Assembly: GCA_002189035.1 (NCBI GenBank)
Contig: NEEC01000008.1
Location: 372,001-436,000 of the forward strand
DNA length: 64,000 nt
Direction: 5' to 3'
From: Utricularia gibba
Taxonomy: Eukaryota; Streptophyta; Magnoliopsida; Lamiales; Lentibulariaceae
Below the pieces are notes generated by a model, which was given only the letters and a program-made list of their open reading frames with translations, had not been told where the DNA came from and ran no database searches. The translations under genes were made by a program, and so were the position numbers. The stretch's first letter is position 1, and every line of letters starts with the position of its first letter. Shown here piece by piece: positions 9,184 through 12,102 of the stretch.

Positions 9184-10128
9184 CTAATTCCTGGACTGCA
9201 ACCTCCTCTTTTCCAGTTCGAGCTGAAGAGAGAATAAAAGGCATGACATATGATAACTGATGAGCTTGTAAACTGCAACTAGAAATCAAGCTCTCGAAGG
9301 ACTTGCCACTTTTCTAACACGTTCATTGGCAGCAGGAGTTCCACCGCTAACAGATTCAGGGAGATAGGGGCTGCTAACACGCACTTCATTCATGACAACA
9401 ATGGCTGTCTTGTCCCAGCGTACTGGAAGCCTATGGAAATTAATACCCCGCATCAGTACTACAAGAGCTTCAGCTCGAGGCAAAGAAACAGCAAGAAAAC
9501 GGTGAAGAAAGACTGGAATTCCGAGAATTCAACTCCTGTTCACAACAGTTCAACTTGCGCTCCCAAAGAACAAGGAATCAAGACTAACAACATACGTTTT
9601 GGATAAGGCGTTGAAAATACTCTGTGCCTCAGCTGTGACTCCGACTCCAATTCTCTCAGCATCAATCTCTGCTTGTCTGAAATCAGCGTCAGGATCAGTA
9701 AACTAAAGCACGAGAATGGGGACGACCAGCTTTTACCTTATTGCAGCCTCTTCCCTAGCCTGCAGAGTACTGAGATCAACAAAGCACTTCTTGATATCAA
9801 GTGGATCTTCACCATGTCCTAAAAAGGTGAACTCCTTGATGAAATTAGCCTTGAGCAGCCTTATATTCCTCTTCTGTCCAGACGCAGACCCAGGTTTCAC
9901 GCCATCCTGTGATTTCTCAAGAAGAGTTAAGGGGCCCGTAAACCCTAAATCAATACAGGAAACGATAGCAATGTGGAAGACAAGAAATTCCAGAAGGATA
10001 TGAAGTATGAGCAGGTTTGATGCGCGGTCAAAGGCGATAATTTGTGCTTGAAACTCTTCTCCAAGCGTCGTCTTTATCGACAAAATGCATCCTACTGCGA
10101 ATTCTTCATCTTGCCCCTGAACCTCCAT
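9184..10128 (-). CDS. LSM12: LSM12-like protein (LSm + anticodon-binding-like AD domain)
   Basis: Five exons on the minus strand, 10128-10002, 9908-9737, 9676-9596, 9430-9307 and 9222-9184, total 543 bases and encode 180 residues with all phases consistent. The N-terminal LSm-like part begins 'EEFAVGCILSIKTTLGEEFQAQIIAFDR', followed by RRNIRLLK-type 'KRNIRLLKANFIKEFTFLG', and then the AD domain with 'LQAREEAAIRQAEIDAERIGVGVTAEAQ' and the signature 'LPVRWDKTAIVVMNEVRVSSPYLPESVSGGT'. The family is conserved from fungi to humans and is linked to RNA binding; the plant role is not established to my knowledge. Intron 1 is AT-AC (U12-type) and intron 4 is GC-AG. If either is read as an ordinary intron the protein is damaged: a short insertion after LLIL, or a truncated tail in place of 'VLELEKRRLQSRN'. 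Confidence 0.92.
9223..9306 (-). other. GC-AG intron (LSM12 intron 4)
   Basis: The exon ends AAAGTG and the intron starts GCAAGTCC; the acceptor is TCTCTTCAG. Splicing yields 'ERVRKV-LELEKRRLQ', the conserved C-terminus. Without splicing the frame ends after 'VASPSRA'. Confidence 0.8.
9909..10001 (-). other. U12-type AT-AC intron (LSM12 intron 1)
   Basis: Read on the minus strand, this 93-base intron starts ATATCCTT, which is exactly the U12 donor consensus, and ends AC. It has GCCCCTTAACTC, close to the U12 branch consensus TTCCTTAAC, with the branch A about 18 bases before the end. Splicing C|AG gives Gln, making 'NLLILQDGVKPG', the expected family sequence. The best GT donor inside would add seven residues (HILLEFL). 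Confidence 0.85.
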
Positions 10129-10618: not shown

Positions 10619-12102
10619 ATGACGACAACAGAACCTCCCATCCACGATTCGTCGCCTGTAGCGCTAATTGGAAAGAAGCCTCCGCTGCAAGGACCGATGG
10701 GTTTACCGACAGTTGCTACCGCCGCCGAATCAGTCGATAACGATGCTGAATCTGCGCTCCTGATCTCCCGCACAGCGGGCCCGCGAAAGATCCCACAAGA
10801 TTCCTTCAACTTTGCGTACATCATATACTTTACGCTGGGGACAGGGTACCTACTTCCCTGGAACGCGTTCATCACTGCCGTCGATTACTTTGCATACCTC
10901 TATCCCGATGCCTCCGTCGATCGCGTAATCGGCGTAGTTTATATGCTTGTGGGTCTGGCCTCTGTGACGCTGATAATTGGGTATGCTCACAAATCCAATG
11001 CCTTTTGGAGGATTAATGTGGGTTATGCGCTGTTTCTTGTAGCCCTATTAGGAGTGCCCTTGGTGGACTTGTTCTACGTCAAGGGTCAGGTTGGGGTGTA
11101 CGGTGGGTATTACCTGACGGTTGCTTTAGTGGATTGTGTGGTGTCGCTGATGGTTTGGTGCAGGGAGGTGTTGTGGGGAGTGCTGGGGAATTGCCCGTGA
11201 GATATATGCAAGCTGTGGTTGCTGGAACGGCTGCTTCAGGTAATAACATTCTTTCTTTGTTGATTAGTTTTAGGTTAACAATTATTGCAAGCTGATCAGG
11301 TTAAACAGTTTGGATGTGTCTATGCTGTTGCATAAGAAGGGGTTTCCAATAGTCTCCCTTAATGTGTCCAGGTGTACTCGTGTCAGCACTCAGAGTTATA
11401 ACAAAGGCTGTATATCCTCATGATTCCCGTGGATTGAGACAAAGTGCAAACCTTTATTTCATCGTCAGTATTGTCATGATGGTATTGAACATAGTTTTTT
11501 ACAATGCGGCGCATAAACTTCCTGTCATCAAGTATTACAGTGATCTGAAATCTGAGGCTGTAAGTTGCGAGAAAGAACAGAAAGGTGAAATTACTGGAAG
11601 AGTTTGGAGAGCAACCTTGTGGGAAATTGTGAGGGCTGTAAAATGGTATGGGCTTAGCATCCTGATAATATATGTGGTGACATTGGCTATCTTTCCTGGA
11701 TCACTTACAGAAGATGTGCATTCTGATTATCTTGGGGACTGGTATCCGATCATTATAATTTCAGCATACAACGTGTTTGATCTGGTTGGGAAGTCTTTGA
11801 CTCCAGTTTACCTTGTACAGAATTCCAAAGTTGCCATTGTTTCCTCTTTTGCAAGGTTGCTGTTTTTCCCTCTCTTCTATCTTTGCTTGCATGGTCCAGA
11901 GTTCCTTGGAACAGAGGTCCCGGTTGTGCTGTTGTCTTGTCTTCTAGGCCTCACCAATGGTTACCTTTCTAGCGTGTTGTTTATTTTGACCCCCAAATCG
12001 GTTCCATTGCAACATGCTGAGACTGCAGGAATCGTGCTCGTTCTGTACATGCTTGTTGGCCTAGCAGCTGGTTCGGTGATTTCCTGGTTCTGGGTCCTGT
12101 AG
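10619..12102 (+). CDS. Equilibrative nucleoside transporter (ENT1-like), frameshift in exon 1
   Basis: Two exons, 10619-11239 and 11372-12102. The protein is a multi-pass membrane transporter of the SLC29/ENT family that moves nucleosides (in plants often proton-coupled) across the plasma or vacuolar membrane. Exon 1 starts MTTTEPP, then 'AYIIYFTLGTGYLLPWNAFITAVDYF', the ENT signature PWN in TM1. Exon 2 has 'YNAAHKLPVIKYY', 'GDWYPIIIISAYNVFDLVGKSL' and the C-terminal 'AGIVLVLYMLVGLAAGSVISWFWVL'. Around 11144-11148 one base is missing: upstream reads in one frame up to 'VDCVVS', downstream 'DGLVQGGVVGSAGELPVRYMQAVVAGTAAS' is in another. With that base the gene gives 450 residues, the length I recall for Arabidopsis ENT1. 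The start at 10619 is chosen because the MTTT N-terminus matches that protein. Confidence 0.9.

Follow-up and report, generated by a model that had tools for sequence, protein, structure and literature searches.

The window, the whole 64,000-nucleotide stretch of Utricularia gibba DNA that was analysed, carries a five-exon gene on its minus strand, between positions 10128 and 9184, with a product of 180 amino acids. When this protein was searched against Pfam profiles, two domains scored above the curated cut-offs: an LSM12_LSM domain (PF21166, 51.8 bits), followed by an AD domain (PF09793, 90.7 bits). With these two domains predicted from its sequence, the gene is LSM12. The profile PF06372 was also considered as a model for LSM12, but was rejected as representing the wrong family. 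A search for relatives of the protein in plasmid, viral and prokaryote collections yielded none, as expected for a eukaryotic gene, and no sequence match was found among solved structures. The Arabidopsis orthologue is presumably At1g24050.

Coding exon 1 (10002–10128, minus strand) starts with an ATG at 10128, is supported by the LSM12_LSM match and ends in ...NLLIL plus a C, leaving the reading frame in phase 1. It is followed on the same strand by coding exon 2 (9737–9908), exons 3 (9596–9676) and 4 (9307–9430), which encode the AD domain, and exon 5 (9184–9222), which includes the stop codon. Intron 4 (9306–9223, minus strand) has GC-AG ends, reading GCAAGTCC...CTCTTCAG; counting intron 1, described below, the gene has two introns that do not start with GT. 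A multi-exon gene resembling a membrane transporter (MTTTEPPIHDSSPVALIGKK...) lies on the plus strand at 10619–12102, arranged head-to-head with LSM12 across a gap of ≈490 bp.

Splice signals of LSM12 intron 1

Exons 1 and 2 are separated by 93 nt (9909–10001, minus strand, phase 1), which the preliminary description had identified as a U12-type AT-AC intron. Read from 10001 to 9909, its ends are ATATCCTTCTGG...GGGCCCCTTAACTCTTCTTGAGAAATCAC (start and finish also ATATCCTTCT...CCCCTTAACTCTTCTTGAGAAATCAC), and its layout is ATATCCTTCT...CCCCTTAAC-N17-AC. The 5' splice site, ATATCCTT (9994–10001), is a perfect U12 AT-type donor, matching RTATCCTT exactly at the exon border. A U12-type branch element, CCCCTTAAC (consensus TTCCTTRAC), is found at 9926–9934, and the second A of the element, at 9927, is the likely branch point. 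Compared with TTCCTTRAY, seven of the nine positions match: the CCTTAAC core is intact, while the 5' end has CC where the consensus has TT, corresponding to two T-to-C changes.

The distance from the presumptive branch A to the last base of the intron is 18 nt. This is inside the wider range of ≈10–20 nt, but long beside many comparable motif pairs in the same genome, which have the acceptor at 10–14 nt; the distance given in the literature is 10–15 nt (PMC2426677). Among the AC and AG sites located 8–25 nt from the branch, the AC at 9909–9910 is the only one that is in frame with the ATATCCTT donor. Two AGs, one 11 nt and the other 20 nt from the branch, are potential competitors, but both shift the frame when combined with this donor. 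The T content of the intron is 41%, compared to 24% in exon 1. The intron comprises 31 codons with no stop in frame, and its retention would add 31 residues within the LSM domain without causing a frameshift.

The donor motif by itself carries no statistical weight, as RTATCCTT was found six times in the 64 kb, against 5.97 expected, which is not significant. In combination with a YYCCTTRAC branch element and a nearby AC or AG, however, it occurred once in the window, compared to a mean of 0.015 in 200 dinucleotide shuffles, and both motifs fell at the sites required by the protein alignment in only 4 per 100,000 local shuffles (4e-5). Genome-wide, there were 17 strict U12 motif pairs, against one for a reversed control pattern. 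A looser pattern, the one to which LSM12 intron 1 conforms, gave only 14 against 5 in the control, and the U12 motifs alone would therefore not prove the intron. Two U12-like motif pairs, one with a GT and one with an AT donor, were located on the same strand 2.5 kb apart (L009 and L010, contig C3, 3383775–3386390), and may belong to one gene with two minor introns.

Predicted splice products

In-frame introns of 50–199 nt with GT-AG, GC-AG, AT-AC or AT-AG ends were enumerated in the region, and the LSM12_LSM profile was used to score the AT-AC product and nine rivals, including full retention. Splicing of 10001–9909 would yield ...NLLILQDGVKPG... in the LSM12 protein, with CAG as the codon across the junction. 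This product scored 54.0 bits, compared to 34.2–45.8 bits for the tested GT-AG and GC-AG products and full retention, and 44.0 bits for another AT-AC acceptor. The full-length scores were 51.8 for the AT-AC product versus 43.1 and 42.6 for alternatives. The earlier suggestion that AT-AC splicing restores the family sequence thus agrees with the best LSM12_LSM score.

Between 10040 and 9909 there are only four GT dinucleotides (at 9981, 9963, 9956 and 9943), and just the one at 9981 allows an in-frame GT-AG intron of at least 60 nt, ending at the AG at 9916 or 9907. When GT 9981 is joined to AG 9907, HILLEFL replaces Q in the protein, as expected from the preliminary description, which had stated that the sole usable GT donor adds odd residues. 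Pairing of the intron GTs with U1 was poor: the best, GT 9943, gave −3.5 kcal/mol and lacks an acceptor in frame within the intron, and GT 9981 gave +0.7 kcal/mol. With the snRNAs of this genome, the ATATCCTT donor gave −5.3 kcal/mol with U11 and −7.6 kcal/mol with U6atac, and the branch element gave −9.1 kcal/mol with U12, the same value as a consensus branch element.

Splicing machinery and a decayed paralogue

Genes for the U12, U11 and U6atac snRNAs were found above the Rfam cut-offs, with the recognition segments GUAAGGAA, AAAAGGG and GAAAGGAGAGA intact. The search for U4atac gave no match to its model in the genome, a result that does not show its absence. The CENATAC (CCDC84) gene is present; in human cells, CENATAC favours AT-AN minor introns (PMC8280824). 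As a positive control we used CBP20; in one study, each of the ten land plants included had a U12-type AT-AC intron as the fourth intron of this gene (PMC5932401). CBP20 in this genome keeps an AT-AC U12 intron after exon 4, reading ATATCCTTTC...ATACCTTAATATGTCCAAC.

With this machinery, the ATATCCTT donor of LSM12 intron 1 would be paired by U11 and later by U6atac, while U12 would pair with CCCCTTAAC, from which the A at 9927 would bulge out to serve as the nucleophile. The minor spliceosome would ligate the end of exon 1, ...CTTC, to the start of exon 2, AGGATGGC..., with the AC as acceptor, and the expected product is a normal LSM12 protein.

The genome also contains an LSM12 pseudogene (L007) on the minus strand of contig C3, at ≈4193450–4194320. 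It has frameshifts, but its introns are still present, showing that it is not a processed copy. A deletion has removed the end of exon 1 together with the 5' part of intron 1, including the donor half, leaving TTTAACTC...AAATCAC followed directly by AAGATGGC. The alignment between pseudogene and functional gene extends from TTAACTC to ATCAC and on across the junction into A(A/G)GATGGC, and the flanking exons are shared. This alignment places the stretch from the branch to the AC at the same position in both LSM12 copies. After the AC, the pseudogene has AA where the functional copy has AG; with an exon that had kept its terminal C, the AA would likewise have made a glutamine codon (CAA).

Interpretation and comparison with known minor introns

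The most serious rival to AT-AC splicing is retention: the main product would keep all 93 nt, with 31 additional codons (HILLEFLVFHIAIVSCIDLGFTGPLTLLEKS) in the LSM domain, or retention would be frequent and give a regulated isoform. This alternative fits the length, which is a multiple of three and free of in-frame stops, and the imperfect branch element, far from the acceptor. It is also in line with the high basal retention that human cells show for AT-AN minor introns (PMC8280824). A stop-free stretch of 93 nt is, however, expected by chance in about one case in five, (61/64)^31, and the T-rich composition is that of an intron, with a perfect ATATCCTT exactly at the break. With the 31 codons included, the LSM12_LSM score was only 44.9 bits, against 54.0 without them, and the match ended at the insert. 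This result speaks against a main product that keeps the intron, and we consider this alternative improbable. It was missed in the preliminary description, in which the open reading frame through the intron was overlooked.

The other alternatives are less probable still. A major-class GT-AG intron, from GT 9981 to the AG at 9907 or 9916, would be in frame and could use the AG at 9908–9907, leaving HILLEFL in the protein. We regard it as very unlikely: the pairing of its donor, CTT/GTCTTC, with U1 is unfavourable, and its products scored 45.8 and 45.7 bits against 54.0. In addition, the pseudogene has CACAAG rather than CACAG, so that the AG is displaced there, although this is a weak argument, coming from a pseudogene. 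An AT-AG intron two bases downstream (9999–9907, ATCCTT...CACAG) would give NLLILHDGVKPG, a product with a score of 51.9 bits, close to 54.0, but ATCCTT is not among the recognised donor sequences. Alternatively, the U12 donor could be joined to the AG at 9917–9916 or at 9908–9907, and one of these, 11 nt from the branch, has the spacing usual for U12 introns; with either AG, however, the frame is broken, and no LSM12 protein would be made. Both of these AG-ending options appear extremely remote.

By far the most probable reading of the sequence at 10001–9909 on the minus strand is that it is a spliceosomal intron of the minor (U12-type) class, with AT-AC ends, located in the LSM domain of LSM12. 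This reading is based on the motifs, the reading frame, the profile preference, the presence of the machinery's RNAs and a paralogue in which the 3' end of the intron is the same, and the CBP20 control adds to the support for what the preliminary description had proposed. Its remark that the AT-AC subtype is rarer is justified, although the point should not be pressed too far, since such introns made up 13–26% of the U12 introns of four plants in one survey (PMC7367187), or 4.8% in another count (PMC5932401).

LSM12 intron 1 resembles intron 4 of plant CBP20 in its ATATCCTT donor, CCTTAAY-type branch element and AC end. It differs in that the branch element begins with CC rather than TT or TA and, at 18 nt, is more distant from the intron end than its CBP20 counterpart. 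Compared with plant U12 AT-AC introns such as that of CBP20, it is also short and open in frame. Major-class AT-AC introns have the AT-AC ends in common with LSM12 intron 1; they are very rare, and lack the ATATCCTT donor and the CCTTAAC branch, both of which are present here.

A minor intron is also known from LSM12 in animals. The fly gene (CG15735) has a U12 intron as the first of four, with a human U12 orthologue (PMC2831892), and its splicing needs the minor spliceosome factor Miso (PMC12084885). The gene family, the first position among four introns and the minor class are thus the same as in the plant gene, whereas the animal introns are of the GT-AG subtype and the plant intron is AT-AC. 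A search of the literature, covering the text of papers, found no report of a U12 intron in plant LSM12. It is possible, though we hold it only tentatively, that the plant and animal introns lie at the same codon; they would then descend from one minor intron of the common ancestor of animals and plants, in which the ends were switched between GT-AG and AT-AC while the class was kept.

LSM12 intron 1 does not represent a new kind of intron, but is a good and well-supported member of one already known, and motif, reading frame, protein profile and paralogue agree on one non-canonical splice junction. That automatic GT-AG gene callers get the LSM12 protein wrong, as the preliminary description had warned, is plausible; the likeliest wrong gene model is one in which the open intron is read as exon, rather than one that uses the poor GT at 9981. 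Being open in frame, the intron can be read through silently, which makes it usable as a test for gene callers. If its position does match that of the animal LSM12 intron, it would join the ancient minor introns that have switched subtype, and its interest would rise.
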